Assembly: GCA_018417955.1 (NCBI GenBank)
Contig: JACTVC010000001.1
Span: 4,836,001 to 4,900,000, forward strand
DNA from: Laccaria trichodermophora
Lineage: Eukaryota; Basidiomycota; Agaricomycetes; Agaricales; Hydnangiaceae
Length of the DNA: 64,000 bases
Reading direction: 5' to 3'
Numbering within the stretch: position 1 is the stretch's first letter; each line of letters starts with the position of its first letter. Of the stretch, positions 884 to 60,260 are shown piece by piece. A program made the translations under genes and the position numbers. The notes below the pieces were generated by a model. The model saw nothing but the letters and a program-made list of their open reading frames with translations, ran no database searches and was not told where the DNA came from.

Positions 884-3370
884 TTGGCGTGTGACATCGG
901 TGAATCTGCCAACTTCGCTACTTATTTCACTGGGAGCCCCGCTGCCAAATCGACGCCGCACCTGTACATCTCGGCATTGGCAACATGGTCACGGAACACC
1001 AGTCTCTCTCGAAAGTGGAAAAACCAGTTCACTCGCATCCCTGCCTTTACGCATACCAAAGGGGGTATTGATTTGCCATTGATGACGGTATCAGCTGGGG
1101 CACAAATTAAATCAGTCGCGATTTCGAGTGATGGGACACAGATTGTGACCAGTGGCTCGTATGACGGGTCTATGCAGGTGTGGGATGCGTCGACTGGTGT
1201 GAAGCTGAAGGAGATGAAGGGCCATACTTGTTTGGTCAGTTCGGTCGCGTTCTCAAGCAATGGGACAAAGATTGCGTCTGGATCGGATGACTATTCTGTG
1301 CGGGTGTGGGATGCATTGACCGGTGTGCAGCTAAAGGAGTTGACAGGCCACACTGATTCGGTCAAATCGGTCGCATTTTCGAGTGATGGGACACAGATTG
1401 TGTCTGGTTCAGAAGACAAGTCTGTGCGGGTGTGGAATGCATCAACAGGTGTGAAGCTGAAGGCACTGAAGGGCCATACTGACACTGTCAATTCGGTTGC
1501 ATTTTCAAGGGATGGGACACAGATTGTGTCTGGATCACTTGATGACTCTGTGCGGGTGTGGAATGCATTGACAGGTGTGCAGCTCATGAAGCTACAGGGC
1601 CACACTCACCATATTCTATCGGTTGCATTTTCGAGCGATGGGGCACGCATTGTAACTGGCTCGTTTGACAACTCTGTGCAGGTGTGGAATGTGTTGACAG
1701 GTGTCAAGCTGAAGAAGTTGAATGGCCATACTCGCCCAGTCACTTCGGTCGCATTTTCAAGTGATGGGACACAGATTGTGTCTGGCTCATGGGACATGTC
1801 TGTGCGGGTGTGGGATGCATTGAATGGTGTAGAGCTAATGGTGCTGAAGGGCCACACTGAATATATTGAATCAGTTGGATTTTCAAGTGATGGCACACGG
1901 ATTGTGTCTGGTTCTCTCGACAAGTCTGTGCGGGTGTGGGATGTGTTGACAGATGTGGAGCTGAAGGAGCTGATGGGCCACACTGGGTGGGTGTCTTCAG
2001 TCGCATTTTCCAGCAATGGGACACAGGTTATGTCTGGCTCGAGTGACATGTCTGTGCGGGTGTGGGATGCATCAACAGGTATGGAGCTGATGGAGCTGAA
2101 GGGCCACACCAACATGGTCAAGTCTGTTGAATACCACTAAGCTACGCGTAGCTTAGTGGTATTCAACATAAAGTAAACCCGACCCAGTGGTCGGTGAATA
2201 ACCCCCCTATGACCCCATACAGTGGGGCCGGTGACTACGCGCACTGTAGTAATTCAACTAGTATAGTATAATGTCGCCCCTTTATGCATTTGGCACTGTA
2301 GTCTGCCATCATGGGTCTTATGCTATCTGGCACAAGCAGGAGTTGAACACGAGACTTCAGGGATTAAGCCACTGAGCCGTCGGGTTTACTTTATGTTGAA
2401 TACCACTAAGCTACGCGTAGCTTAGTGGTATTCAACAAAGTCAGTCGCATTTTCGAGCGATGGGACGCGGATTGTGTCTGGCTCGTATGACAAGTCTGTG
2501 CGGGTATGGGATGCATTGACAGGTGTGGAGCTGAAGGAGCTGAAGGGCCATATTGACCAGGTCAATTCAGTTGCATTTTCAAGTGATGGGACACAGATTG
2601 TGTCTGGATCGGGTGACATGTCTGTGCAGGTGTGGGATGCATTGACTGGTGCGAAGCTGAGGGAGCTGAAGGGTCACACTGGGGTGGTCATTTTAGTCGC
2701 ATTTTCGAGCGATGGGACAAAGATTGTGTCTGGTTCACATGACAGGTCTGTGTGGGTGTGGGATGTGTTGACAGGTGTGAAGCTGAAGGAGCTGAAGGGC
2801 CACACTGACCTGGTCATGTCAGTCGCATTTTCAAGGGATGGGACACAGATTGTGTCTGGTTCATATGACAGGCTTGTGCGAGTGTGGGATGCATTGTCAG
2901 GTGTGGAGCTGAAGAAGCTGAAGGGCCACACTGACTTTGTCACATCGGTTGCATTTTCGAGGGATGGGACACAGATTGTGTCTGGTTCATGTGACAGGTC
3001 TGTGCAGGTGTGTGATGCATTGGCTGGTGTGGAACTGAGGGAGCTGAAGGGTCATATTGGGCAGGTCACTTCGGTCGCGTTTTCAAGCAATGGGACACGG
3101 ATTGTGTCTGGCTCGCATGACAAGTCTGTACGGGTATGGAATGTGTCAACAAGTGTTTTGAGTGAGGGAGACGCGCGCTTTGCTTGGGATCTGGCAGACT
3201 CAAACTGGATTATCTCTTCTCGGGAGCAAAACCCCCTTATGTGGGTGCCAAAGGAGGCTGATTTACGCACACCTCTCAAGATTCTTATCATTTCTCGGTC
3301 TGGCTTTTCTACAGTTGACTTTGATCAGTCTATGATTGGTGTTGATTGGGCTCACTGTTATACACCATAG
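884..3370 (+). pseudogene. WD40 propeller part of a NACHT-WD40 (NLR-like) gene, 5'-truncated and split by an insertion
   Basis: Two open stretches (884-2124 and 2443-3370) encode 14 WD40 repeats of about 42 residues, eight before and six after an insertion. Removing the 313-bp element plus one copy of its AAGTC target duplication joins them in one frame of 723 codons. The head (residues about 25-65, with PHLYISALATWSRNTSLS) and the tail after the last repeat are of the kind found after NACHT domains in agaric NLR-like proteins, which are thought to act in non-self recognition. No NACHT or effector domain is present; the 5' side is a LINE relic, and the first in-frame codon used here is TTG, so no genuine start is seen. 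The repeats are almost identical except for residues just after GH(T) and a few others. Fourteen repeats would fit two seven-bladed propellers. It is disrupted now, but the low divergence suggests recent loss. Confidence 0.85.
2125..2437. mobile_element. 313-bp element with palindromic ends and a tRNA-like core
   Basis: It is inserted inside the WD40 repeats and flanked by a 5-bp target duplication AAGTC (2120-2124 and 2438-2442). It starts TGTTGAATACC and ends GGTATTCAACA. Each end is a perfect 42-bp palindrome (2126-2167 and 2395-2436), so the ends are at once direct and inverted repeats. The next 16 bases inward are also inverted (ATAAAGTAAACCCGAC against GTCGGGTTTACTTTAT), giving about 60-bp terminal repeats. 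On the minus strand near 2375-2325 an A-box-like GGCTCAGTGGCTTAA is followed by a B-box-like GTGTTCAACTCC, as in tRNA-derived SINEs. There is no coding capacity. TG..CA ends with a 5-bp duplication recall LTR-type integration, but the inverted architecture recalls a MITE; its class is undecided. Confidence 0.8.
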
Positions 3371-12818: not shown

Positions 12819-13501
12819 TAGGACCCCTGAAAATACCCTTGGAACCCAGATCCCAATCCGGATAAAAATTCTGAAATTTTTTTGAAAACCCATAGCACTG
12901 TCCGGATAGAATTTAGACCATTTTGGCTGGAACCCGGAGGCAGATTTCCGGATAGAAATTGGGCTGACCCACCAAACCCAGAGCCACTTCCGGATAAAAA
13001 TTGGTGCAGCTGGGGATCCGAACTCAAGACATATTGAATGTGAAGGTCATCAACTAAAGCCATTAACGTTTTAACCACTACTCCAAATGAACATAATATT
13101 ATTTTCCACTTTGACCATCTTACACCATCGATATTTGCATTTCTCTGCACTCTCAAATATGTCTCAGAGGAGCCACGAAATGGGCACGATTTCGTGTATT
13201 TTAGTGTCTTGTTATCTGAGATGCTTGCAGGATGCCTATTGGGGCTCCAGAGGAGATGCCGTGCGAGAAATTTGCGTTTTAAAGCGAAAATAGGTGTTTT
13301 TAAGCGAAAATTTGGTGTTTTCAAGTGAAAAAAGCGAAAATAGAGGTTTTGGGTAACCCAGATCCGCGTCCGGATAAATTTTGCCCATACCTGGACCCAG
13401 ATCCGCCATCCGGATAGAATTTGTCCAAAACTGTCCGGATAAAAATTCCAAAAATTTCGACTTTTTGGATCTGGGTTCCAAGGGTACTTTCAGGGGTCCT
13501 A
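12819..13501. mobile_element. 683-bp inverted-repeat element with CCGGATA subterminal repeats
   Basis: It is bounded by a 6-bp duplication TTCTAC (12813-12818 and 13502-13507). Its ends are TAGGACCCCTGAAAATACCC and the near-exact inverse, about 40 bp each. Seven copies of a TCCGGATARAAATT-like box lie in the same orientation, four on the left and three on the right, and resemble transposase-binding subterminal repeats. The core holds AAGCGAAAAT repeats but no coding frame. It is a non-autonomous DNA transposon; the superfamily is not assigned. Confidence 0.75.
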
Positions 13502-17993: not shown

Positions 17994-18435
17994 ACACGTT
18001 ATCCCCATACTCCACGCAATGACTTTGACGCTGCTTTTGGACTGTACGACCAAGAAACATTTTGCATACTTTCACGAACACTTCTGTATTCACGCTCTTC
18101 ATGCCATTTGAATTACTACACATATACGTATACGTTCTTGACGACTATCTTGTAAACTTTGGCCACTCCAAGATTGAGGAATAGCGAACAGCGATACCTA
18201 TGCCTCTTCAAGTTCATTAATTAGGACAAAATTGTCAGAGGGAACCGGGCCTATTTGTAACCAGCATTGTGAGGTATAATATTGACGGTCAGTCAGTACA
18301 TTCCTGGTAAGGTTGTTAACGAGATCAGTGGCAGTGGATGCCAGGAAATGAAGATCGCAGAATGTGCACGTCCAAGCTGGTACGTTTATGGTTCAAAATA
18401 TTCCATTAAACAACATGGGATCGGCCATTCAAATT
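17994..18435. other. 3' flank of the oxidase gene
   Basis: AT-rich DNA without recognised genes, leading into the tRNA-like array. Confidence 0.4.
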
Positions 18436-21400
18436 AGCTCACGAGGGATTTAAAGCACTGTATTGAGCTATGTTGGTGCATGGTGCAGACTGTTAAACCA
18501 CTTGCACTTTTACTGTGTTCTTGCATAAAATAATATTCAAACAGCCTGAGGTTGAGGAGCCACTGCCAAGCATCTGCTCCAACTTTATTTATTTTTCCTG
18601 AAGACTCAGTGCTCAATAATAAAATGAGTGGAGGCTGACTTGAGTCTTTTCACACAGGCATTACCCAAAAATATAACAGGTGGTTCAATTTGTCAGGAAC
18701 TCAAGAGGGATTCGAACCCATTACAATACAGAGCTCTGAAGAAGACATAGAAGCATTATATTGAGCCATGTAGGCGCATGGTGCAGACCATTTTACCACT
18801 GGTGCTTGTACATTGTATACATACTTCATCATATACAAAAGGCCTAGGTAAATCCACTTTAGCTTGCTTTACCATTCTACACCAAAGAGCTGATATCAAA
18901 ATTGGAGTATGCTAGAGCCTTACACTGGCATGCATCACAACACACAAAAAAAAACCAGTCATCTATTGCATCAGGTAAGAAATCAAGGAATTCAAATTCA
19001 TTGATATCAGAGGATTCAGAGGCATTATTGTGTTGAGCTAATTGGACCAGTTGGCCATTTGTATTTTTTTTATCATTGTCTAGAACTTTCACCCCAGCTG
19101 CCATGTCAAACTGATGTGCTTGAAGGCAAAACAGATAAAAATAAAACAAACTCCTTTGAATTAGAGTTGTATGGAATTCAATAGTGGTTGGTGTACATCC
19201 ATAAAAAAGTGGCCCTTTCAGACATCAGCTCAAGTGGGATTGGAACCAACTCACTCATATACATACCCAGCCTCAAGACTCAAGGTATTGTACTGAGCTG
19301 CACTGATTATCATTGGTACTTTCCATAACACAATTTCACCAACTTGATAATGAATGTGTCCACTGATGACTCTGCAAGCAATTGAAAGCAATTTGTTTTT
19401 CTTCTTTTTGAAAACATCTAATGACTGCTAACACACATGAGACTAATTGTGACATCAGGTTTCCTTCCAAATATTGGCCAGGCAAGTCTGAGGTGTGATG
19501 TGCAAGTGAGTGTACTCTATAACTTATAAGGCACCCTCAAGAAATGATTTATCAAAAAACAGAAGGAATTGATGCATTAGCCTAGGGGGATTTGAACCTG
19601 CCAATTTCACCCAACTTTCCCATGGATTAGAGGTGCTGTGAGGTTGAGCCAGTGGACCACTGGGCCATTTGTGCTTTTCTGCATTATGGATTCATCACCC
19701 TCAGAAATGCCTGAGAGGTGTCTCTCCAAGTACTTGAAAGCATAGATATATATAGCATTGCCAATGCCCACCTATGGTTGAGTATGTATGTCCATGTACA
19801 CATGATGTCAGCTTATTGTTATACCACTTGGGGACTTCTCTAATTTCTAACACCAATTGTTTAGTGGAAGTGCATCCAGGCAAAAAAAACTGACACATCC
19901 TCATTGACACAGCTCAAAGGGGATTTGAACCCCACCAACTTTGCCAGGCCTCCCCTAACTCCCCTGGCAAGATTTAGAGGTGCTTGTGAAGTTGAGCTAC
20001 TAATTGTTATTGACACAGATCAAGGGGGATTTGAACCCCCACCAAGCTACCCTCACCCAAATCCCCCAGCAAGATTCAGAGGCATTGTAAAGTTGAGCCA
20101 CTACTTGGCTACTTATGTTGTATTGAAATAAATGTTTATTAGTGTAAATGCATCATTAAAAAAACTCAAACACTTCATCAAACACTGCTCAAAGGGGATT
20201 CAAACCCTACCAATTTTCACCCCAGCAAGATTTGTGAATTTGAGCTAACACTGGACTGCTAGGCTATTTACAGCTTTGGTTTACCTATGTTGTATTGAAA
20301 TAATTGTTCATTGAAGGGTGTTCTCAAAAAAAGAAATCAGAGTCAAAAGTTCAATGCTTGATTCACAGCTCAAGGGGGATTCAAACCCCCACCAATTTCT
20401 ACCCTCACCCAACTGCCTTAGGTGAGATTCAGACATGTTTGTGAAGTTGAGCTAACACTGGACTGCTAGGCTATTTACAGCTCAAGTTTACTTATGTTGT
20501 ATCAAAACAATTCAAGTAGTTTGATGAACATGTATCCACAAGAAAAGTTTTCATTCCCAATATGGAACAGCTCAAGGGGGATTTGAACCCCCCACCAATT
20601 CCACTCACCTGATTCAGAAGTGTTTGTGAAGTTGAGCTACTGCTTTGGCTATTTACAGCTTGAGTTTACTTACATTGTATCAAAACAATTTGTAAGTGGA
20701 AGTGTGTCCATAAGAAAAGAAAAATTATGACCTCATTGAATGGTCAATCCACAGCTCAAGGGGGATTCGAACCCCACCAATCTACCCTCACCTCAATAAG
20801 ATTCAGATGTGTTTGTGAAGTTGAGCTACATAGCACTGGACTCCTACAGCTCGATTTGTTTACTTACGTCGTATCAAAAAAACAATTGTTTAGTGAAAGT
20901 GCATTCATAAAAAACAAGTTATGGCAGAAGCACAGCTCAAGGGGGATTTGAACCCCACAAGTATACCCTCACCCAACTCCCCAGGAAGATTCAGAGGTGT
21001 TGCTACTATGTACTTGACTATTTACAGCTCAAGTTTACTCACATTGTATTGAAACAATTTGTAAGTGGAAGTGAATCCATTAAAAAAAAGTAAGAGCTCA
21101 CGCGACCCACAGCTCAAGGGGGATTCGAACCCACCACCAATTTCACTCACCCAATTCAGAAGTGTTTGTGAAGTTGAGCTACTACTTGGATATTTATTGC
21201 TCGAATTTACTTATGTCGTATCGAAACAATTGTTTAGTGAAAGTGCATTCATAAAAAACAAGGTATGGGCCAAGCACAGCTCAAAGGGGAATCGAACCCC
21301 CACCAATTTCTACCCTCACCCAACTCCCCCGGTGGGATTCAGAGGTGTTTGTAAAGTTGAGCTACTTGACACTGGACTGCTACAGCCCAAGTTTACTTAC

Positions 21401-21572
21401 ATCGTATCGAAACAATTCATGTAGTCTAGTGAACGTGCCGTCCATAAAAATACTCGAACACCCTACAGCTCAAGGGGGGAATCGAACCCGCCGCCGCCCC
21501 CCCACCAATTTAATTTCGTCCTCACCCAACTCCCCCCGGCGAGGGTTCAGAGGTGCTTGTGAAGTTGAGCTA
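18436..21572 (-). repeat. Tandem array of about 15 tRNA-like, Pol III-type units
   Basis: Units start (plus coordinates) near 18436, 18698, 18978, 19227, 19579, 19911, 20018, 20187, 20367, 20569, 20753, 20934, 21111, 21278 and 21467. From 20187 rightward the period is 167-202 bp; on the left it is longer. On the plus strand each unit begins AGCTCAAGGGGGATTCGAAC and ends GAAGTTGAGCTAC. Read on the minus strand this is an A-box-like TAGCTCAACTT, a long variable middle, a T-arm of the form GGGG-TTCGATT-CCCC containing the B box, and TTGAGCT, which pairs with AGCTCAA as a 7-bp closing stem. Nearly every unit is followed downstream (minus strand) by T5-T9, a Pol III terminator. Spacers also repeat (TTTACTTACGTCGTATC, AGTGAAAGTGCATTC), so the entire 180-bp unit is duplicated, not only the tRNA-like part. 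CpG is frequent on the right and almost absent on the left. Confidence 0.85.
21278..21365 (-). ncRNA. Best-preserved tRNA-like unit of the array
   Basis: Read on the minus strand: AGCTCAA at the 5' end pairs with TTGAGCT at the 3' end. The B box GGTTCGATTCC sits in a T-arm with a 7-base loop, and a G-rich variable segment of about 30 bases lies before it. A T6 run at 21258-21253 is about 20 bases beyond the 3' end. No clear anticodon arm is visible, so it is not a normal tRNA; a tRNA-derived small RNA or SINE-like unit is more likely. Transcription is inferred only. Confidence 0.5.
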
Positions 21573-21929
21573 GCTAGGCTATTTACATCTTTTTTTTTAC
21601 ATACGTAGACCTAACGGCAAAGATAGAGTGTCCCATTTTGATATCGCTTCAAGTTGACACAAGCCGAGTCCAAGATACCTAAGCTTTTGTTTAGATATCC
21701 TTGGCATTTAGCAATTGAGGGTACGATTCCTACCCCTACCCCCGCGACGAATTGCAACAACCCAAGCTCCAAAGACCCCAAAATTCGCGATAGAGTGAAT
21801 GGTGGTTATTATTATATAAATACCGTGTCCCCCAAATTACACAAACGACTTGAACGAAGCGCAGCTTCAACTTCTCGTTTCCCCCCAATTAATTGACCCC
21901 CTTCCAACCAACCCCAAACACGCGCTCAC
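21573..21929. other. Boundary between array and genes
   Basis: No gene is recognised. Sequence composition shifts here from AT-rich array DNA to CpG-containing DNA of the next gene pair. Confidence 0.4.
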
Positions 21930-23975: not shown

Positions 23976-24306
23976 GGTTGATGGCTATAAGTTTTGGATG
24001 AAAGCTGGATGAAAGTGAGCGGGGAGGGAGGAGGCTGGAGCGGGAGACTGGGAAACTGGCCATGGGAGACTGGATCTGGGGGACAGAGCGGGGTAGGCGC
24101 GTTCGTAGATAGACGTCCGATACAACGTGCGGAATGCAAGATCATTCAAACTAATTATAAACACAAAGCACTCCGCAGTGAGCCCAATCTTCCACCCAAA
24201 ATTTGCACGATTTTAAAATCTTTACCTTGACGCGTGCCGATGTTACTTTTCCCTTCTTCTCAATTGCGCAAAGAACAAAAAAATTATTCGCACTTTTCTG
24301 GAACAT
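23976..24306. other. Intergenic region
   Basis: G-rich 3' flank of the WW gene. A T7 run read on the minus strand (about 24284-24278) may terminate the tRNA gene that follows. Confidence 0.4.
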
Positions 24307-24397
24307 AACCGACGGTGGGATTCGAACCCACAGCCTTTGCCTTAGCTTTACATCTAGGTGATAGGAAAGCAACGCGCTACCATTGCGCTACGCCGGC
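24307..24397 (-). tRNA. tRNA-Arg(CCU) with intron
   Basis: Read on the minus strand: acceptor stem GCCGGCG pairing with CGTCGGT, D-arm TAGCGCAATGGTAGCGC, anticodon stem TTGCT/GGCAA, loop TTCCTA..A with anticodon CCT, and T-arm GTGGG-TTCGAAT-CCCAC. An intron of about 19 bases follows position 37. A and B boxes are intact. Confidence 0.92.
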
Positions 24398-25471
24398 TTA
24401 TGCAAAATGGGAGATGTTGAAGGACCTGAATGAGTCATACTTGCTCATCATAGAGCAATGAAAGAGACCTTCCTTTCGTTTGTCTAGTTTCCTGAAAGTT
24501 ATTTTGAGTGTTCCGCCTTGGGTTGAAAATAATCAAAACACAGACGTGCAAAATAAATCATTCCTTAAGTCGTGTTAGAATAGTACACCTAAAGTCATTT
24601 CATTACGGCGCGGCGGAATAGGTCCAAACAATCGATTCCACCTTTTTCCGTCCAGCCTGCTGTTTACATAAAATTCATAGATGATTGAAACCTGTTGTAT
24701 GTCTATGTATGGCGTATGCGAGCACAAGTATCCCCCCTTCGACTGAATACAAAAAGATATTTCTTCATTCAGATAATAAGAAAATGAGGAACTGCTGACT
24801 TGTGCAGTGCACCCCGAACCACGCTCGAGAGGTGTAGGTGGAGCGCACCTTGGCACCAACGGGGCAGAGGTCACGGTGAAAATGGAGAATTCTAGAGTGG
24901 ATGTTGGAGAGAAACTTCAGTTAGCGAAATTGTCACAGATGAACAACAGACGAATTACTACTAGTATGTGGGACCTGCCACTCCAAGTCAGCAGGTGGGG
25001 GAATCGCACTGTTGCACATGAGCATTTTACACGAAATCTTATCTGTGTGTACCCAGGACAGACTCAGAAAGGAACGAATGATACCGCGTAATTACTAATG
25101 ACCCCCCTTGACGAGACGTCGGTCAACAGTCACAAAAACTACCCTCAACTTCTAAAATGATCATCACCTTTTAATTCATGTTAGCGGGGGATAGAAAGTG
25201 ATGGGACTGATTTGTGAAGAAACATTACGGTCCTGCTTTGGCATGCAAGGCATCGTGTAGTTTTTGCAACTTGAATTTCCAAGGTGTACTCAGACGGAAT
25301 CAATCACCTTCTCAGCGTCAGAGAAAAGAGACCTATGTATCATACTGTGGGGATGAACGACCGCCTGCGAACCTGTTAAACGGGTAATGATTAATGACGC
25401 GGACGCTCGAGGGCACAGTGGGGGAACAAAGAGCAAGTACTAAAGGCCATCCTTCGAGTTCGTACATTAAG
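24398..25471. other. Region between the two tRNA-Arg genes
   Basis: No supported gene. A plus frame at 24807-25091 has no recognised motif. The DNA is AT-rich with small unassigned repeats. Confidence 0.35.
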
Positions 25472-25925: not shown

Positions 25926-26025
25926 GCCGGCGTAGCGCAATGGTAGCGCGTTGCTTTCCTATAACGACGATTGCAGTTTATAGATTGAAAGGCAAAGGTT
26001 GTGGGTTCGATCCCCATCGTCGGTT
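25926..26025 (+). tRNA. tRNA-Arg(CCU) with a different, longer intron
   Basis: Mature parts match the gene at 24307-24397 almost base for base (GCCGGCGTAGCGCAATGGTA, TTGCTTTCCTA), but the intron is about 26 bases and unrelated in sequence. The T-arm is GTGGG-TTCGATC-CCCAT, closing with a G-U pair. The two genes point away from each other. Confidence 0.92.
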
Positions 26026-44967: not shown

Positions 44968-47722
44968 TCATGCAGCAGCAGCTTGTGCTTCTTTACCAAA
45001 CGAGCTAAAGCCATAGTTTTCCCCTCTAACAAATGCCTTCGTACATTGCGCCATCGTCACGGACCTACACGATACACGCGTCAGCTGAGAGATAGACCAA
45101 GAAAAGGACTCTCAACTCACGCTCTTGAAATAGGATCTGTCTGGTAAAAGTTGGAGATGGGTTTTCGGAGAGGAACACCAGAGATCTTGGCATCTTTTGT
45201 TGCAGCGACCAAGGTCTTGAGGCCTGCGAGGGCCACGTCGACAGATGTTGGCTCTGTGACGTCGTACCTCACAAGTGTCGGTGAAATCTCCCACATCCGA
45301 TCGCGAAGCTCGAGAATGCCGTCATAGGGCAAAGGCACACCAATGACCTCAGACAATGCGCTAAAGTCAGATGAGCATCGTGATTTCAAAATAGAACGGA
45401 TTGGAACCCACCGTATGATCTTCCAGTCCTCACGAGCAGCACCAGGGGCAGGCACAGCACCACGGCCGAGTTGTGACCGACCTTCGGTGTTGATCCACGT
45501 TGTCCCCTTCTCAGTGTAGGCTGAGGCAGGGAGACAGACGTCAGCTAGTTGAGCACCCAAGTCACCATGGTGGCCTTGATACACAACAAAGGCGTCTCGA
45601 GGGATGGACTTGGGGTCGACTTCATCGGCATTGAGAAGGTATATGAACTTTGGTTTCGTTGTTGAGGCCTGCTTTGAGGGAACAAAGCCGAGCTCATAGG
45701 CGGCTGGCCGTGAAGCAACCTGGAAACCAATGTTATTACAGACTAGGTTGACACATATCAAGAACTTACCCGTTGAAGGACGCTATAACCATTCCATTCC
45801 GGAGTAACAAGAGTAGCCTTGTTCGCTTCTACAAACTTCGCGAGCTTGTTATACATGGCAGCACCATCCGGGTGCTCGCTCAACGCGCTACCAACAATGA
45901 TGAGGGGCTTCTTCGCAGCCTTGAACTTCTTCGCAAAGTCGCCTTTGCCAGCGACAAAGTCCGACAAAGCTTTGGCGTCCTCTCCAAGGAAGTCATACCC
46001 ATACGTGGTATCAGCCCGTTCTCCAATCAAACCAACCTCCAAACTGGTATGCAACCAGCTCTTGCGGATCCGGGAGTTGAGCACGGCTGCTTCATGTCGA
46101 GGATTTGTGCCAACAAGGAGGATGACGTCGGCCTTCTCGACGCCGGGAATAGTGGAGTTGAAAAGATAATTTGACCGCACATCGACACCGTGAACAGGGG
46201 GAGCAGTGCCGCCGACTTGGTCCAGCCCAAGGTTGTCTGAGCCGAGACGGTTGATAAGGTCTTTCAGGGCGGTTAAAGACTCCGTGTCTGCATGATGTCC
46301 GGCAATAGCTTGAATCTCGTTACCATTCGCACCATTCGCAGCCAGCCCCTGCGCAACGGCAGCCAGTGCATCCTCCCATGTTGCAGCCACAAATCTATCA
46401 CCCTGCTTTATCAGAGGCGTTGTTAGGCGTTGGTACTTCAGCCCATCGTACGCAAACCGCGTCTTGTCGCTGATCCACTCCTCGTTGACGTCGTCGTTTG
46501 TCCGTGGTTGGATGCGCATCACTGCGACACCACGAGAGTCGATTCGGATGTTCGAGCCCACAGCGTCCATCACGTCAATGGACTCTGTGTTTTTGAGCTC
46601 CCAGGGACGAGCATGGTATGCATATGGTTTGCTCGTCAAGGCACCAACGGGGCACAGGTCCACGATGTTCCCTGACAACTCAGAGTCCATCGTCTTCTCC
46701 ACGTACGTGCCGATTTGCATGTCGTTTCCACGTCCCGTAGACCCAAGCTCCTCGACCCCAGCAACTTCATTGGCGAATCGGATGCATCGGGTACATTGGA
46801 TACAGCGGTTCATGGAGGTTTTGACGAGGGGACCGAGATCCTTGTTCTCAACAGCGCGTTTGCCGGTGATTTCGTGGAAGCGGGTGCGGTCAGAGCCGTA
46901 CCGCATAGATTGATCTTGAAGGTCGCATTCCCCACCTTGATCGCAGATGGGGCAGTCCAGGGGGTGGTTTGCGAGGAGGAACTCCATTACGCCTTCGCTG
47001 TGGACAGAGTAAGAACAACGCGCTGAGAGGTTGAGACTGTGACGTACCGAGCTTCGTGAACCAAGGGTGTGTTTGTGAAAACTTTCGATCCAGGCATAGC
47101 TGGCATTGCACTGGCATGTATGTGGGTATCAGGTAACTGACAATGAAAACAAACGCACCATGAGGCGACTGGCTTTGGTGACCTCTCGACTTCGACCAGA
47201 CACATGCTGTGTTTCCCGTTAGAATCAGGTACTGTATTAGCGCCTAGAGTTGCTCACCGACAATTCCCAGCGATGGCGAGCCTTCGTGGAAAGCGTTAGT
47301 TTTCATGACAAGAAATGGTAGTGTTTCGTACCTATCATGATAACAGAACCTGCACCAGAGCATGAGCGAAGTATAGTTCAAAGTTGAAAACGACGAACCG
47401 TGGTATCGTTGCTCCCGCAGCTTCACAAGCTTGAATAAGGGCAGAGCCTGCCATACGCATATCAGGACCATCTCCAAAAAACGAGCGTTGCTAACGTACC
47501 CTGTGGTACAGTCACTTCCTTCCCATCAACCGTCAGAGTAATGTCCGCCCCCCGCGCAGAAGTTGAGGCAAAGCTCCGACGACCTACAAACGGATTACCT
47601 GCATGCCAACGGGCGCACAACGAGAGCCACGTACTGGAATGTGGTGTGTGTGTCGACGTCACAACCTTTCCGAGTAGCCCCGTCGATGTGGGTCGCGACA
47701 CGGTGGAGACGATGCGCAGCAT
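44968..47722 (-). CDS. NDUFS1: NADH-ubiquinone oxidoreductase 75-kDa subunit (complex I, NDUFS1)
   Basis: Ten exons (47722-47500, 47447-47399, 47349-47332, 47281-47258, 47206-47159, 47110-47048, 46997-45770, 45719-45412, 45360-45121, 45064-44968) give 765 residues with all phases correct. The N-terminus is Ser/Arg-rich, a mitochondrial presequence, and [15 protein letters not shown] starts the [2Fe-2S] ferredoxin domain. Ligands C93, C104, C107 and C121 lie in RFCYHD, GNCRMC and the codon split between exons 5 and 6. [18 protein letters not shown] and [16 protein letters not shown] carry the 4Fe-4S ligands, and a molybdopterin-oxidoreductase-like domain follows. It is a core electron-transfer subunit of the matrix arm of complex I. 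Exons 3 and 4 are 18 and 24 bases. Confidence 0.95.
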
Positions 47723-49800
47723 GGTAGTGGGGATGACTGAAAAAAGGTAATAAAGTGGGTGTGTGTGGGCTCAGAGCCCGCAGAACGGCGAGGGAAAAGA
47801 ATAGAGAGGCTGCTCGTCGTTTGGTACAGCGACCAACCACGTCCCTCCAATTTCTCTTTCCCACCCATTTTGGGCGGAGTTTCAAGTTCAAACTCAGATT
47901 ACGTAATAACACGGTTTTGTATATAATTGAGAAGAGGTGAGATTTAACTTTTTGAGAGTATCGTTTTACATGTACTTTTGCAGGTGTTGGATGCAAAGGG
48001 CGAGCAACTGAGTATGGTGGGACTCAATGGACAAAATGAAAATTTTGTTATCCACAACAAAACTTTTTGTATGTGACATAATTATTTTTATTTTCAGAAA
48101 AGAAAACTTACAAAGTCAGAAAACTTTTTCCAATAAAAACTTTTCTGTGAAAACATTTTACCATGTGACTAAAATATTTTGACCATGTGACTGAAATATT
48201 TGTATTCACGTGACTATTGCCACTCCTCAGTCGCACTACGCTGAAAGTGCCGTCAGTGTCATACTTAACAACTCCCTATACACCGTACCCTCTCTGTTCT
48301 GGTCGGTATGGCCCTCTTGCTGGGCGTGAATCTAAAATGTTAACAGGAGCTTGACTATTGAAGTGCCGGCCTTGTCCATGAGTGCAATAGCATGTGGGGT
48401 CAACAGCAGCTGACCCTGTCCATGGTGTCATTGATAACCTCCACACGCACATTCCTGGCACTTGTCCAGTGCTGAGTCCATGGTGGTTGGCATCTGGACA
48501 ATAAACAGACAACAGCCATGTATTCACCATTGCAGGCCTTCTGCTGGATTTCATGAGATGTCAAGAATAAGAAAAGTATTTTTGTGAATGAAATTTTTTG
48601 ATAGAAATCAAAACAGAATCGCGTCAAGAAGTAATTTTTTATGGCAAATCTTTTGAAAATTCTATACAAATGAAAAAGTTTCCTTATAAAAGAAGAAATT
48701 TAATTTTGTCCAATGAGGCCCCTCATAACCGAGCATCCGGTGAAATCCAGGCCATCACATTGGATCTTAACAATATTATTTCTGCCTCCTCTTTCCTTGA
48801 GGCTCTACCATCGCAGCTTGTTCTCCCTTCAATCCATCCCTCTTTGACTTCTTCTATCTCATCCAAACATATCTATGGCCATTTGTGGAGGGATTCCAGG
48901 GAAGGCTTCATTTTCGGGGCCACTTCTTGCAGGCTGAGCATGCTTGCTAAGTAAGTGATACACTGCATGTATTCTGTCTGTAGTTAACCTGATATTGTGA
49001 GAGGTTTGCACAGCTGACAGTTCGGAATAGGAACGTTTGTGCAAGGCCCACCTTACCATATTTTTGTAGTGATAAGGACAATTTGATTTAATCGAGGCGA
49101 CACCGGTTTTTTTTTTTTGAGAAAGACTTGTGTTTGACAGTACAACCAGGTGCTCTAAATGAAGTTGGCTCTGTTGCCGAAGGAATAGACTTGGTCATTC
49201 TGATGTTTAGAAGGATGGAAAGGAATTGGAGATCCGAGAAACAGAAATTACTACATGCCTTGCAGACCCCAAGAGTTTGACTGCCACTATTATACATCTG
49301 AACAGGGTCTACAGTCTAACTACACTGGTACTTGAAAGGATGACACTGTGCACTGTGGATATCTGGATGCATGTTGGATATGCGTCATGATCCAATCATG
49401 ATCAGTTAGTAGGAGCATGACAGCCGACTTGGTAAAGTCATGGGAATTCCCCCAGGGTGGGTGGATGCTCGGTCACTCACCCAGACTGCCCTTTGGTTGG
49501 AATCTGGATGTAAGGGCAGGTGTCAAGAACTTTGGATCTATGGTGTCATTAGACTGCAAAATAGTCAAAGCATACTAACAGGAGTCAAGCCTTCGTAGTG
49601 CCGCACTGAGAGGTGCTGTACCCAACTCCTTGTGTACTGCAAAATTTGAAGTGGACAAGAGGGGAAGACATAGGGATGGGGTACAGAGCCTGGCAGTTGG
49701 GCTTGAAAAGGCATATATATGCAGCTCCCAGACTGTGTTAGTAGGTGTTAATGGCAGGAACAAGGCAGGAATGAAAGCCTTTCTTAACATGTTCAAGTAA
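47723..49800. other. NDUFS1 promoter, then gene-poor DNA with coding relics
   Basis: The first 170 bases are the NDUFS1 promoter, also duplicated at 55.2-56.9 kb. From 47.95 kb the DNA is AT-rich. Plus-strand relics occur near 48710-48954 (ITLDLNNIISASSFLEALPS) and 49120-49280 (LTVQPGALNEVGSVAEGIDL), without starts or a shared frame. The families are unrecognised. Confidence 0.4.
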
Positions 49801-51210
49801 GTACATGTACATGTTCAAGCATACCCATACCACTTGGTCTGTGCACAGATGTCACATGACAACTTTCGCACAATTTCAATTTTCATTGAGCCATCACTCT
49901 TTGCTGAGACACTTCCCAATGCCAATAATGTCGCTTTCCACCCCAGCAACGCGCTTGCCATATAATCACAGCACTGAATCACTCCATACACAAAGAATCT
50001 GCTTAAAGCCTGCCGAAGTTTTGGCAGCTCGAGATATCACCTCTTTAGTATGGGCAGAAGATGCACTCTCTTTCGTTCACTCCGTCTGTACAGGGCTTGG
50101 TGGACTCCAACTCATTGTGGAAGATATGCAGGTACTGAATGCTGTGTGAGAGATCACGAAGGAACTCCCATATCAGAGGGATAAAACCCCACATTAGTCG
50201 TGGATTGAATGGGATATGTATGACCCATGGCCCCCAAGCTGTTATCCATACTCTATCTGTCTAAGTGCAACCACTCATCAAAAAATCATTTGGAAAAGTG
50301 GAAAACCGGCACATATTTTCATCCATCCCCAATCCTTTTTTTCGGTTAACATGAACGACCAAAATCACACACTTGCACTTGATCATTTCTCTCCAAAAAT
50401 ACGGTTTCCTACACTGCCAGCCTTTATAGACTTGCTCACTGTGGTCCTCTTGGACCCCCCATTGTGTTACTATCATTCCTGCTTGGCCTTGTTCATGAGA
50501 AATTATCTGGCTGAGCTGTTGTATTTCCCTTTTCAGGGCAACAATCCCCTCAAGCCCAATGGAGAGCTGTGTAAAAATTATGCATCAGTGGCCAAACTCC
50601 TGCGAGAAGAAAATAGACCCTACTTCGTTAGTTATCTAAAACGTCATGGGCAAGTTGTTTGGGAGCATGAGGTTGAAATTCGACAGGCTATCCTGGAAAA
50701 AATGGGGTGAGTTGGAATTCATTGTGGTTTTGCACATGAAACACTGTAGCTAATGAAAATTAGTCATCCTGCAGTGCTATGCCCTTTTCCAGCTAAAAGT
50801 CGCAATCTGGAGTACAGGTGCTCCCATCCACCTCTTGTCTCTTTTACTGCTCTCTAATTAGTAAAATAGCACGCGAATGTGAAAATTGTTTCCTGACAGG
50901 GGGTAAGACCATTTCTCGATATGAATGGCAAATGGCTAACTATTCTTCAGGCCATATAATTGGTCTCCATTTGGGAAGCCTGACTTATATTGTAATATTC
51001 GAAAGCTTCGCAGACTTTGCCGATGAGGGGGAGAGGTTGATATGGTGTCAATGCTGTAGGGAACTCAAAATTTGTAACAGTCACCGTCCCAACATGAGAA
51101 CCATAGGAACAGAGGGGCTTGCGTCATATCATCATACAGGAAATAGGCTACAAAGATGTCAGATGCTACACAAACAAAATACAATTTACAGCTGGAATAA
51201 GTGAAAGAAA
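49801..51210 (+). pseudogene. Decayed plus-strand gene of an unrecognised agaric family
   Basis: Three open pieces read as protein in the same direction. At 49873-50149: ICLKPAEVLAARDITSLVWA then EDALSFVHSVCTGLGGLQL. At about 50535-50710: NNPLKPNGELCKNYASVAKL then HEVEIRQAILEKMG. At 50818-51204: a part with paired cysteines (WCQCC). The donor-like GTACTG after the first piece suggests lost introns. No complete model can be built. Confidence 0.4.
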
Positions 51211-52052
51211 GTTGAAACCCTTTCTGCCATGACCTTTTTTGAGATGGTTATGGCAAACTCTGGTCGACACTCATTGCATAGTCTTTGTCCAGTGTCTTGG
51301 TTGGTTCCAAAGTCCTTGCCACTGCCTACCCTTGCTCTTTCAGTGCATGCTGTTTTGGCTGTTGATTCCCCTCCCAGTCTTCTTTACATCTTGTCATTAT
51401 TCAGATATGCTGGCCATCTGAGGGGGTCTTGGCCTACTGATTGCGAGTGAAGCGAGCATTCCTTCGCTAAAGCGTTGAAAGCCTGGACAAATAAGTACAA
51501 ATTTTCCAGTTGCAAAGGTTGAAAATTTTGGTGGGGAAGAAGAGTGTTTCACAGATATCTCATCCATTTCCGGAACTCTCTAAATAAAACTTGGCAAGTG
51601 TGTTCGTGAAGGGCACCCTTACACACCTATCACAGAAAAAATGCCACTTGTCTTGTGTATTGCATGTTAAATCAACCCTCAAACTTCAAGTTGGGTGGTG
51701 GCATTTGCAACAATTCTTCTGAAATGGTGTAAGAAAAGCTAAACTGCTTAAACATTTGTATGAAAGTCATTTATACATCTTGGATGTCTTACGACATGTT
51801 TTTTTAGTCATTCCTCCTCTAGCATTCAGTTTTAAAGACTGCACAAAGTCGCATGTCGCAAAGAGGCAAGTGACTTTGGCCACCTTGACCCATGCCACTG
51901 TCATGGAAAATATTGTGGTCACTGTCATATTATTCGAAGGTCAAACCTGAGCAGAACAAATTAGTTGTGTGAAGTTAGCCTAACCCCTGCAAAACTCGTG
52001 GATCCATTTTAAGCTACCTTTCTAGACATGAACCTTTTGTGATGACCGTGAC
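51211..52052. other. Stretch without a supported gene
   Basis: AT-rich DNA with short frames only, ending at the hAT-type element. Confidence 0.3.
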
Positions 52053-52554
52053 CAAGGGGGCCCTGGGATGTCGACCCATGACCCGAGGTAGGTGGGGGGG
52101 GGACCTCCAGCAGGCCTTAAAAAAATTTAGTATATAGGCTTCAAAAATCTATATTTGGGGCCCTGTAGCAACGCTAGATGCATCAGCGGCACCTCCAATG
52201 CAGTTGAACGGTTAATAACTTACAATAGAAGTAAGTGTGTTAGGGAAACCAAAATTCTGTCATCCCTCCCACCTTTCTTGCTCAGCTCAGACTTGCATGG
52301 CAAAAACAAATGTGAAAAAAAGCTGCACAAGGGGATGAATTTTTGTACCAGAAAAGGGTGCAATGAATTATTCTAAGGTTCATGGCCCACCATGAGTGCA
52401 GCCAGAAATTTCTTCAAAAGAGCGGTGGGAAAAACATACCCTTTTTGGATGAAAACATACCTTACTTAGAAGGAGCGATGGGGGGGGGACGTCACGGAAG
52501 GCTTATAAAAAAAAATCTACCCCATGTCATTTCTGAAATCCCTGGGCCCTCTTG
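52053..52554. mobile_element. Non-autonomous hAT-type element (502 bp)
   Basis: It starts CAAGGGGGCCCTGGGAT and ends with the near inverse (ATCCCTGGGCCCTCTTG). The flanking 8-bp duplication is ACCGTGAC (52045-52052) and ACCATGAC (52555-52562), differing by one CpG to CpA change. Inside are GTGGGGGGGG and CTTAAAAAAATTTAGTAT, shared with the element at 4317. Confidence 0.78.
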
Positions 52555-52765
52555 ACCATGACAGACATCTTGTGTGTTTCAAGATATAGACAATGATGCA
52601 GACATACAGATGATAAAATGGAAACAAAGATCTAAGCGTATGGACATTGTGTACGAGTTGGAGGAGAAACTGAACAGAGGCAAACCAGATGGAGACGTGA
52701 GGCAGGTGGGTGGGTGGATCAATGAACTCAAAACCTTCAAATCAATGCCAAAGACCAAGGTCTCA

Positions 52766-53401
52766 TCACACATTCCTTACCAGTGCTGACTTGCCTTTGA
52801 CCGCAAGGGCCTGTAATACTTTCTTGACGTCTTCGTCTGAGTAAAGTGTTTTAAGTTCATCGGGCATGGCTTTTTCGCACTCGACAAGGTACTTGATGTT
52901 GACAATGATGTCGAGAAGGTCATACTCCATTTTGTGGGTGTGTGTGGCGTTGCGGTGTGCCAGCGTACGAATTTTGTCTGCCAACAATGCATGTTCGTTC
53001 AAAAACTTAAATCCCTCTTTTTTGATGCTGTACTTCTCCAGAAGTGGGATGATTTCTGATCTACAGGAGGATACGTCACAATTGATTTGGAGTCCAAACT
53101 CATCCTTGAAGCGGTATTTTGCCATCACTGGATCCTTTGATCTGGTGATATCCAAGAAACTTGGGTATCTAAGATTGCGGTCTAAACCTTTCAGAGAAGT
53201 GACATCAACATCAAGATCCTGGTAGGCATGTATTAGATTCGGCCAAATAATGATTATATTGGCTTGTACCTGTGTAAATCGGTGCTGGTGCCTCAGTACA
53301 GCTGCCGCGCCACCAATGATGATGGCTGTTTCGCTTTGTCGCTTTGCTGCATAAGTGATTGCCTGTGTGGCCGATATAGTCTCTTGGCGAATGGGGTACA
53401 T
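52766..53401 (-). CDS. Small putative nucleotidyltransferase-fold protein
   Basis: Two exons (53401-53270, 53218-52766) give 194 residues; the 51-base intron is in frame, so its retention would also be open. The N-terminal half has TAIIIGGAAAVLRHQHRFTQ followed after splicing by DLDVDV, matching the GG..A......R.T.DLD pattern of minimal nucleotidyltransferases (AbiEii-like and related). The remainder is alpha-helical and unassigned. The final codons precede a GTAAGG donor-like site, so a further exon may exist. A direct substrate cannot be inferred. It sits among mobile-element remnants. Confidence 0.5.
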   Translation of the reverse strand: MYPIRQETISATQAITYAAKRQSETAIIIGGAAAVLRHQHRFTQVQANIIIIWPNLIHAYQDLDVDVTSLKGLDRNLRYPSFLDITRSKDPVMAKYRFKDEFGLQINCDVSSCRSEIIPLLEKYSIKKEGFKFLNEHALLADKIRTLAHRNATHTHKMEYDLLDIIVNIKYLVECEKAMPDELKTLYSDEDVKKVLQALAVKGKSALVRNV

Positions 53402-53464
53402 TTCAGTTCAGTCGAGGTGGTGTGTAAATTTTGGGTGAGCTCACAAGAGAGCCTGAATCTCGGC

Positions 53465-53805
53465 GACAAGGCAAGCTTTAATAAAGGCCAACCAGATAGA
53501 GGACTGATGAGTGGTGGAAACAAGTGGGGAGGGAAAGCGGCCCAGGTGTGGAAGAGATGAAGAGATGGAGAGCCTCAGGGAATTTTTGTGGAGGCTGACA
53601 GAGGTGTGGATTATCTGAGGTCTGGGAATTTTGGAGACAAGGCAAGCTATAATAAAGGCCAACCAAATAGAGGCCTGATGAGTGGTGGAAACAAGCAGGA
53701 AGAGAAAGCAGCCCAGGTGTGAAAGAGATGAAGAGATTGAGAGCCTCAGGGAAAAATTCTGGAGGCTGACAGAGGTGTGAATTATCTGAGGTCTGGAGAG
53801 GCTGA
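53465..53805. repeat. Two-copy tandem repeat, period 171 bp
   Basis: GACAAGGCAAGC...GGTCTGG occurs at 53465-53635 and again at 53636-53805 with about 90 percent identity (by eye). Long antisense frames over it arise from the repeat and are not genes. Confidence 0.75.
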
Positions 53806-55181
53806 CAAGACTGAGACTGAGAGACAGTGACAAGGAACGTGAAGGCAAGTTTTGTGATGAGGTTGATATGGAAGGAGTAAAAAGAAGACACAAAGTAGAG
53901 ACCTAGAGAGGCAATGAGATGGAGACCCGAAGCAAGAGTGGTGTTCAAAGGGTGTGACTGAAGTCTGAGGGTGAGGAGTGCTTGGTAGCCTGAGGCGAGA
54001 GATTTTTGGGGGATGTAAAATGGGAGTGGTGAGGTAGTTCAAGATAAGACGTGCACGACATGTTGGCTGTAATTCACAATCATATAAAGGGAAATTTGGG
54101 AGGCTGACACCCAAATTACTGTTAGAGGTAAAATAGAACCGCCTCCAACCATCTTTGCTTCCCTCTTGAAGCTGCGGTCTCTGTTACAAGAGTATCTCAG
54201 TAAATATGAGAGTCTGCTTTGAAAGTTATCGGTCGAAAATTCAAATAACAGATACTCCTGCATTCATATTATTGTGAACAAAGGTACGACTTCACATAAT
54301 ATCGAAGTCTGTCTAGGAGAGACTAACTCCTGCAGCTATTTTAACATTACAGCTCTCAGTCGGGAAAGTAGTCGTGTTTTTACAAATACATACAACATTC
54401 CAGCCAACATATACTATATGAATACAATTCTAACCAAGAAACAAAGCAAGCAAAAAACAAGGGTAAAAAAGTGAAACTATAACAACAGTATATATAAGCA
54501 TCAACTCGCCACTGAAGAGGCTAGATAAAAATTCACAAACCACGTCCGATCTCACTCCTCCAACCCAGCCTGTATATCACTCAACACAATCCCAGCCTTG
54601 ATTAACATACTCTGCACACCAACTCCCTATCCAACTTTTCTCTGCCCTCCCCGCTTCCGTGCTCCCTCTCTCCACTTAACTCCATATCTGCTCCCCTCTC
54701 CCTGTTCCTCTTTCCCACTCACGAGCTCCTGACCTTGGGAAGTAGTTCGCGACAGTGAAGGCCATCACACAATGCAGCTGAAGGAGGTGGTAACGCAGTC
54801 ACAAACGAAGGCAGTGGTAACAAAGTTGCAGACGTTGAAGAACGTGGCAATGTAGCCACAGACGACGGAGGAGGCACAGGAAATGCAGATAAACTCAAAT
54901 TAAGAAAAGTCGACAGTTGTCCAATAGTCAACGGAGAGTAGTCCCCTTCCCTTCACATCAAATAACCAGTGAGAGGCAGCAGGATGGATGGCAGATCATC
55001 GAATTCAAAGTTTGTCAACATGAGGAGAGTGTGAGCGCATGTTGTCCTTATCACCATCATTATTGTATACCATAGTAAGGGGGGCCCTGAGCCTAGTGCG
55101 AACCAGTGGACCTTGCTAACGTGACGAGCCCATAGACACATCGCCTTGGTGGTGGTGGTTCAGCAGTAAACTTGAAGGAAT
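53806..55181. other. Stretch without a supported gene
   Basis: It holds GAGA-rich DNA, AT-rich DNA and a small 15-18 base near-repeat at 54770-54880 (GGTAACGCAGTCACAAACGA-like). Nothing coding is convincing. Confidence 0.3.
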
Positions 55182-56882
55182 CTGTTAGTGTCTGCACCCT
55201 GCACAGAAGTTGAGGCAAAGCTCCAACAACCTACAAATGGATTACCTGCATGCCAACGGGCACACAACGAGAGCCACGTACTGGAATGTGGTGTATGTGT
55301 CAACATCACAACCTTTCCAAGTAGCCCCGTCGATGTGGGTCATGACACGGTGGAGATGATGCACAGCATGGTAATGGGGATGACTGAAAAAAGGTAAGAA
55401 AGTGGGTGTGTGTGGGCTTAGAGCCCGCAGAATAGCGAGGGAAAAGAATAGAGAGGCTGCTCATCGTTTGGTACAGCGACCAAGTGTACTCCTCTTATCT
55501 TGGAAAAAGAAGATTTGCCAAAGAAGCAGACTGGAAGGCTTGGGACAGCCCTAGTGGCTGACAAATGATGTGCGAAAAATCACGGAGTCAAGGCTGGTAA
55601 ACCAGTCCCCTTGCTGATCAACAAACACCAATATGCCGAAGGGTTGGGTTATTCCACACATCTACCGATTAGGCCTGAATGAAAATCTGAGGGGGTGTGA
55701 GGCCTCTGCTTGAGGAAAGAACTAAGGTCAAATGGGGTTAGTCTTACAGGGTTAGGGGGTTTCCCCACAAGAATGCCTGCCAGCGATGGCCACATGATGG
55801 TGTGCCGTGAGATCTAGGTGCAGTGATAAGGTAGCTCAGGGAGTAAAAGAAGCGATCGAGTTCCTACGCTTGTAAGGGTTAAGCCATGGGCCCCCCTGAA
55901 AGTCCTGATTAGTGTTACAAACGGAAAGTCATGAAAGCAGGCATAAACGGCAGGACAGTTACGTAGTTTAGGTAGCTCATACCCACGAAAAGTCCTGGTC
56001 TACATACTGGATGACTTCCCATAAGGTTTAGAAACCTAGATTATTTTTCTAAACTGACGTGCCATCATGCCGTTTGCCAAATGAGTCAAAATCTGTCAAG
56101 ATTCAACTCTGCTTGTCATCGAGCACCCTCTTCTAGATGAAAATCTAGACGAGGCCTCCAACCCCCCCTTCTAGTTCTAAATCACTTGAATAAACCCTTC
56201 TTTCATTGTCCGATGATCAATCCCTGGGCATCGCGTCCATATCAGGTAATGCATCGAGATACACCAACATATGTAGTAGGCCTTCTATATGATTATACAC
56301 TAGGTTTTTCATGTTTTTCTTGAGAACTGGAATCATGGAATAAATGGTGATGATGATTAAGTTATTTTCTTCACAAATCCATTGTGGACTGAGTTTTGTA
56401 AGATTGCAGTGTGTCGACATGCGTTGACTTCCTTCAAACCCCAGATTTATCATTTGGGCTGCCCAATTGTATACAACCACATTGTCTACAAATTAGAGGC
56501 CACTTCTCCTGCTGTGATTTTGTCCCAATTGAAGCTGGAGGCACAGTGGACAAGGAATGAGCTAAAGTAAAGAGATCCTGAATGAGATCTGTTTCCACAA
56601 AAGAAAAATTGGTTGTGCTTATGTAGATCTGTACTGCTTGACTTACGGTTTAGAACACTGGCAGAATATATTTTCAAACCCTGCCCATCAAACATTTAGA
56701 AGATAATCTAGGATTCTAGACCTTATGGGAAGTCATCCACTATTGTCATGTAACGTGATTGTTAGATTATCTCCGAATAATCATTGACATACACATGGCG
56801 ACCAACCACATCCCTCCAATTTCTCTTTCCCACCATTTTGAGCAGAGCTTCAAGTTCAGGGTTAGATTATGTAATAATAACG
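55182..56882 (-). pseudogene. Copy of the NDUFS1 promoter and first exon, split by an insertion
   Basis: 55182-55483 and 56798-56882 align to 47535-47890: first, part of the presequence exon including the ATG region, then the upstream promoter. Most differences are CpG in the original to TpG or CpA in the copy (for example CTCCGACGACC to CTCCAACAACC, GTCGACGTCAC to GTCAACATCAC). Only exon 1 is present, so it cannot encode a functional subunit. Confidence 0.88.
55484..56797. mobile_element. 1.3-kb insertion of unknown class
   Basis: It interrupts the NDUFS1 copy exactly and is flanked by an 8-bp duplication GCGACCAA (55476-55483 and 56798-56805). The ends GTGTACTCC and ACACATG are not good inverted repeats, and no terminal direct repeat was found. 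It contains an internal inverted repeat (56008-56046 against 56702-56739, with CTTATGGGAAGTCATCCA), so a second element may be nested. No coding frame is recognised. Confidence 0.65.

Positions 56883-60260
<3,378 letters not shown>

Follow-up and report, generated by a model that had tools for sequence, protein, structure and literature searches.

Background

Squamate reptiles carry SINE-derived satellites (sSats), tandem repeats that grew out of part of a Pol III element of tRNA type (PMC10702118). The array of Laccaria trichodermophora described here resembles sSats in its tandem copies, which may have grown from a similar part, and in its modest amplification; it differs from them in that no parent SINE family was found in the genome, a single further copy was found, and CpG loss is complete. 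Helenus / TRIMp3 elements, known in Agaricomycetes and including one zebrafish family with tandem arrays (PMC10886601), likewise have a tRNA-like promoter preceded by further element sequence, but their primer-binding site, polypurine tract, paired repeats and 5-bp target duplication were not identified here. Five B boxes in the fission yeast elements IR-L and IR-R aid boundary function (PMC4502379); the array is likewise a B-box cluster, with 13 good B boxes in 3.1 kb rather than five, in tandem copies of which most have a terminator run. The tRNA-derived SINEs of fungi such as Aspergillus fumigatus have A and B boxes of the tRNA type (PMC5063351). The array has such B boxes and candidate A boxes, but as far as searched it is not dispersed, and its shared sequence reaches approximately 200 bp upstream of the A box. 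No fungal array of this kind was found described in the open-access literature, a search with most subscription journals outside its reach.

Organization of the array

The genome comprises 59 Mb in 77 contigs, and the window analysed is its 64,000-bp stretch C1:4,836,001-4,900,000. The window contains an array spanning 18433-21574, where a preliminary description had proposed about 15 tRNA-like units on the minus strand, and 15 related minus-strand units (u1 to u15) are indeed located there. They follow the 3' side of a plus-strand gene for an amine oxidase, of which two ORFs match Amino_oxidase, and precede a minus-strand ORF without a Pfam match. The features are as follows.

u1, 18433..18475, minus: short, decayed unit; model R1 21.0 bits; B box 5.2 bits, not acceptable; without a T5 run
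u2, 18667..18798, minus: A box 18798-18788, 8.6 bits; B box 16.2 bits; T5 run at 18667
u3, 18946..19057, minus: A box 19057-19047, 10.6 bits; B box lost, 4.2 bits; T9 run at 18946
u4, 19203..19341, minus: candidate A box 19341-19331, 8.0 bits; B box 12.0 bits; T6 run at 19203
u5, 19554..19667, minus: best A box of the array, 19667-19657 (TGGCCCAGTGG), 15.7 bits; B box 14.7 bits; T6 run at 19554
u6, 19882..20001, minus: B box 14.7 bits; T8 run at 19882; spacing to u7 only 106 bp
u7, 20014..20111, minus: A box 20111-20101 (TAGCCAAGTAG), 10.8 bits; B box 14.7 bits; without a T5 run
u8, 20158..20266, minus: A box 20266-20256, 7.6 bits; B box 11.4 bits; T7 run at 20158
u9, 20326..20473, minus: A box 20473-20463, 7.6 bits; B box 11.4 bits; T7 run at 20326
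u10, 20566..20641, minus: B box 14.7 bits; weak A box; longest T run 4
u11, 20720..20830, minus: B box 16.2 bits; weak A box, 5.1 bits; T5 run at 20720
u12, 20909..21020, minus: B box 14.7 bits; weak A box, 3.8 bits; TAGCTCAA side partly deleted; T6 run at 20909
u13, 21082..21192, minus: B box 16.2 bits; weak A box, 6.0 bits; T8 run at 21082
u14, 21253..21366, minus: B box 16.5 bits; weak A box, 5.1 bits; T6 run at 21253
u15, 21446..21581, minus: B box 16.5 bits; weak A box, 5.5 bits; T5 run at 21446; A side and upstream flank match the C24 copy
CpG-free stretch, 18775..20768, no strand: u3 to u10 and the edges of u2 and u11
Upstream flank common to the C24 copy, 21582..21777, minus: islands separated by indels

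From u1 to u15 the units are spaced by 262, 282, 247, 351, 333, 106, 169, 181, 202, 184, 181, 177, 167 and 189 bp: five left-hand spacings of 247-351 bp, then 106 bp, then eight (u7 to u15) of 167-202 bp. A period of about 180 bp, and with it the proposed likeness to nucleosome spacing, is thus valid for those eight spacings and fails for the left part of the array. The left-hand units are far more diverged than the right-hand ones. Model R1, built from the 15 units, recovers 15/15, which is a consistency check only, and has no other match above 14 bits in the window; a DNA query consisting of u14 and its borders, which is independent of R1, finds matches elsewhere in the array (best E 4.3e-44). 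A DNA query over the left units matches only itself, so that these units are recognisable by their motifs and not by overall similarity. The proposal that spacers repeat as well, and hence that whole Pol III-type units were amplified, is supported for the right-hand units. Tandem Repeats Finder does not report the array.

Pol III signals

Matrices for the A and B boxes were built from 29 distinct nuclear tRNA sequences of the genome, in which scoring 63 of 2,749 candidates gave 61 tRNA matches. Sequences were retrieved for 50 of these matches, 17 of which were excluded as mitochondrial or doubtful; the remaining 11 matches lie on contigs C52 and C55. By this standard 13/15 units have a B box within the true tRNA range (at least 9.3 bits), the exceptions among the B boxes once claimed for every unit being u1 and u3; in u3, u8 and u9 the invariant B-box C has been lost through TG. 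The motif TAGCTCAA, previously taken to be A-box-like, is a poor match, scoring 5.1 bits in most units that carry it versus 9.7-15.4 bits for true A boxes. Better candidates lie 11-41 bases upstream of it in seven units, three of them (u5, u7 and u3) in the true range and four (u2, u4, u8 and u9) at 7.6-8.6 bits. The A-box signal exceeds that of shuffles of its own stretch (Fisher p 3e-5 for u1-u5 and 5e-5 for u6-u15), but the wrong-strand control itself gives 0.05 and 0.01, and the support is therefore moderate.

The expectation of a T5-T9 run just downstream of nearly every unit holds: a run of at least five T lies 5-45 bases past the T-arm in 12/15 units (not in u1, u7 or u10). When 14 runs were placed at random, 12 units were reached in 0/10,000 trials; shuffles of the array average 1.5 units with a maximum of 6 (1,000 shuffles), and of the opposite-strand runs 0/5 are so placed. 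Combinations of an A box (5 bits), a B box (8 bits) and a T5 run occur at 12 minus-strand sites of the window, ten of them in the array and the other two at a tRNA-Gly gene near 24.3 kb and at 13,024, and at no site on the plus strand.

Outside the array, the surroundings of these two sites were also noted. A tRNA-like pair of A and B boxes with a T5 run lies inside a repeat at 12960-13120 (minus strand) that has eight genome matches including itself, at 82-100% identity, and is perhaps a real dispersed Pol III-type element. Intron-containing tRNA genes at 24306-24398 (minus strand) and 25926-26025 (plus strand) lie 1.5 kb apart in opposite orientation, with nearly identical 5' parts.

tRNA identity and RNA structure

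The array is not a normal tRNA cluster, as had been stated: neither ARAGORN nor the Rfam tRNA model predicts a tRNA gene within it, the best tRNA-model match reaching 17.1 bits at a cut-off of 29, and no Rfam family scores above its cut-off there. No parent tRNA is named, because the best local alignments pick out different tRNAs for different units.

The 7-bp closing stem (AGCTCAA with TTGAGCT) that had been ascribed to each unit is complete in 9/15 (u2, u4, u6, u9, u10, u11, u13, u14 and u15), has 6/7 pairs in u1, u7 and u8, and is unformed in u3 as aligned, u5 and u12. Covariation in this stem, whose absence the preliminary description had listed among the observations that together would refute it, is indeed lacking: across the 15 units 0/7 pairs are changed on both sides. 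In the T-stem three pairs have one both-side-changed cell each, a result equalled by 10/500 shuffles and by slid controls. RNAalifold predicts no consensus pair over the units, and the folding energy reaches z < -2 in 2/15 (u9 and u10). A conserved RNA structure is thus unsupported.

Copies elsewhere in the genome

Genome copy counts are lower bounds throughout. The T-arm-side pattern, with at most 3 mismatches, has 15 matches: 11 in the array, a perfect one on contig C24 and one each on C12, C67 and C76. The other-side pattern has eight, of which seven are in the array and one on C24; the right flank of the array matches C24 only, and the query of u14 and its borders also matches there (E 1.1e-13). 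The unit is therefore found, as far as searched, as one copy at one place outside the array, and dispersed copies of the kind expected of a SINE were not found, in agreement with the earlier view that this is not a dispersed SINE.

The segment shared with C24 begins approximately 400 bp 3' of a BRF1 gene, towards which it points; the gene encodes TFIIB and BRF1 domains and has a PDB match to yeast Brf1. BRF1 is the gene of a TFIIIB subunit. The flank upstream of u15 recurs in the C24 copy, at 82% over 84 bp and in islands beyond that. At both loci approximately 200 bp of common sequence lie ahead of the A box, an arrangement that fits the 5' end of a SINE poorly. The C24 unit is split by a transposon-like insert of approximately 1.76 kb with inverted ends CATCAGCAAAAC (L053 635-2399), and the ends of the copy are not sharp.

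The C12 match was set aside as one 3-mismatch match with no surrounding unit. A link to the DNA transposon on C67 and C76, whose ends have a T-arm-like stretch followed by TTTGAGYTGTGT, was dropped because these ends score 13.6 bits against model R1, below the 15.8 bits of a tRNA locus (L104). By eye, the C67 and C76 loci (L055, L056 and L060-L063) represent an element approximately 8-9 kb long, which has the inverted ends TACGGTGCGCC and shows duplications of 6 bp (AGCGAG; CGTGAC). The related copies L064-L072 are nine copies of a repeat, eight of them at least 99.6% alike and five within 42 kb of a contig start, and is perhaps subtelomeric; the two compared with R1, L064 and L066, do not match it.

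CpG loss

The preliminary description omitted a property of the array that is reported here as new: between 18,775 and 20,768 there is not one CpG over 1,993 bp, where the window total of 2,902 predicts approximately 90 per 2 kb at the mean rate and the next longest CpG-free stretch of the window is 300 bp. The loss is confined to the array. Observed/expected CpG is 0.29 in u1, 0.17 in u2, 0 in u3-u10, 0.56 in u11 and 0 in u12, and at the right edge 0.87 in u13, 0.41 in u14 and 0.97 in u15; observed/expected TpG/CpA is raised in the left array (1.51 versus 1.17 for the window). At the CpG site of the B box, five units have CG, five CA, three TG and two another state, so that CA or TG is present in eight of the ten units without the CpG.

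For basidiomycetes, CG methylation that prefers transposable elements has been described (PMC7862722). RIP-like mutation, rather than methylation, may be behind the CpG loss, and the substitution spectrum is a weak test: among the aligned right-hand units 36/72 changed CG cells are TG or CA, a weak excess over like changes of the control dinucleotides GC (32/82), CC (35/80) and GG (46/124).

CpG is also scarce elsewhere in the window, in the repeats at 1.2-2.5 kb and in a block at 47.7-58 kb. Positions 1106-3143 hold 126-bp tandem repeats that look WD40-like by eye; CpG is low there, and nowhere else in the window is the TpG/CpA ratio as high. The block (47700-58000) has observed/expected CpG mostly of 0.3-0.6 in 1.5-kb windows, contains a 171-bp tandem repeat at 53465-53796, and is probably repeat-rich.

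Sequence constraint

Divergence was measured over nine of the ten right-hand units (u7 excluded) with CpG columns removed. Pairs of units diverge by 0.03 over TAGCTCAA, by 0.13 over the B box, by 0.09 over TTGAGCT, likewise by 0.09 over the upstream segment S1, and by 0.26 to 0.54 over the others; the first three together diverge by 0.083 versus 0.290 for the rest (permutation p 0.0002), and the lower motif divergence persists with u12 dropped, or with u12, u6 and u15 dropped. The B box alone versus the rest gives p values of 0.08, 0.12 and 0.015 in the three unit sets, and in a circular-shift test of the B box with TTGAGCT 17/162 shifts are equally low. The middle and post-T-arm stretches of the units vary strongly. 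The low variation of the motifs hints at selection or past constraint and does not prove it, because the units were found through these same motifs and indels inflate the divergence of the rest.

Origin and possible function of the array

It is somewhat probable, on the evidence of the sequence, that the array derives from a low-copy, tRNA-derived Pol III cassette that was amplified locally, came to be treated as a repeat, was CpG-methylated and is now decaying. A cassette of A box, B box and downstream T run, with the upstream flank that occurs once on C24, would have been amplified head to tail into approximately 15 units, the copies being generated by unequal exchange or slippage; the left and middle array would then have been recognised as a repeat and CpG-methylated, after which deamination would have removed its CpGs, and the right edge, which retains CpG, would be younger or would have escaped. 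In its present state it is most likely a small satellite of tRNA origin, silenced or transcribed at a low level, rather than a gene cluster. Against this stand the better A boxes of the left and middle units, which are diverged, so that decay is not simply from right to left, together with the low motif variation and the weak CG substitution test. Of the three roles previously considered (satellite, small-RNA locus and TFIIIC boundary), the satellite is favoured.

The main functional rival is a TFIIIC landing array that serves as a chromatin boundary or insulator and that selection maintains within or next to a silenced region, which we regard as rather unlikely. The number of units with a true-range B box relative to those with a true-range A box (13/15 versus only 3/15), the finding that TAGCTCAA, the B box and TTGAGCT vary less across the nine right-hand units, and the precedent of IR-L and IR-R would all fit it, but the B box by itself does not evolve clearly more slowly, u3, u8 and u9 have lost the invariant C, the T runs of 12/15 units are not needed for such a role, and the motifs in question are those by which the units were found. 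A more specific form appears quite unlikely: tandem amplification of a Pol III cassette would have built a dedicated B-box array, with TFIIIC on its B boxes as a boundary in or beside a CpG-methylated block; selection would keep the three motifs while methylation-driven mutation strips the CpGs around these motifs; and the C24 relative beside BRF1 might formerly have acted as a local sensor for Pol III.

The upstream sequence common to both loci raises the idea of a Helenus / TRIMp3-type element, a distinctly improbable one: only two loci were found, the longest match to a tRNA 3' end, among 29 nuclear tRNAs from which the initiator tRNA is perhaps missing, is 7 bases in the array and 8 on C24 (shuffled arrays: mean 7.3, maximum 11), giving no primer-binding site, and the two purine tracts of at least 11 in the array are at no repeated place. 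That the units are a cluster of genes for small non-coding RNAs made by Pol III would account for the presence of 10/12 minus-strand A, B and T5 sites of the window within the array, with none on the plus strand, and for an A-box signal above shuffles. This explanation is nevertheless very improbable from the sequence features that oppose it, namely the wrong-strand A-box control, the lack of stem covariation and consensus structure with low folding energy in only two units, the strong variation of the middle and post-T-arm stretches, the absence of an Rfam family above cut-off, and a CpG loss that suggests silencing.

The amplified and silenced satellite that we favour would give the array a wider interest, since it looks like an early satellite with its single-copy relative in the same genome and thereby links a Pol III cassette to the birth of a satellite. 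Moreover, approximately 2 kb free of CpG in which promoter motifs persist amounts to a natural test of whether TFIIIC sites withstand fungal DNA methylation.
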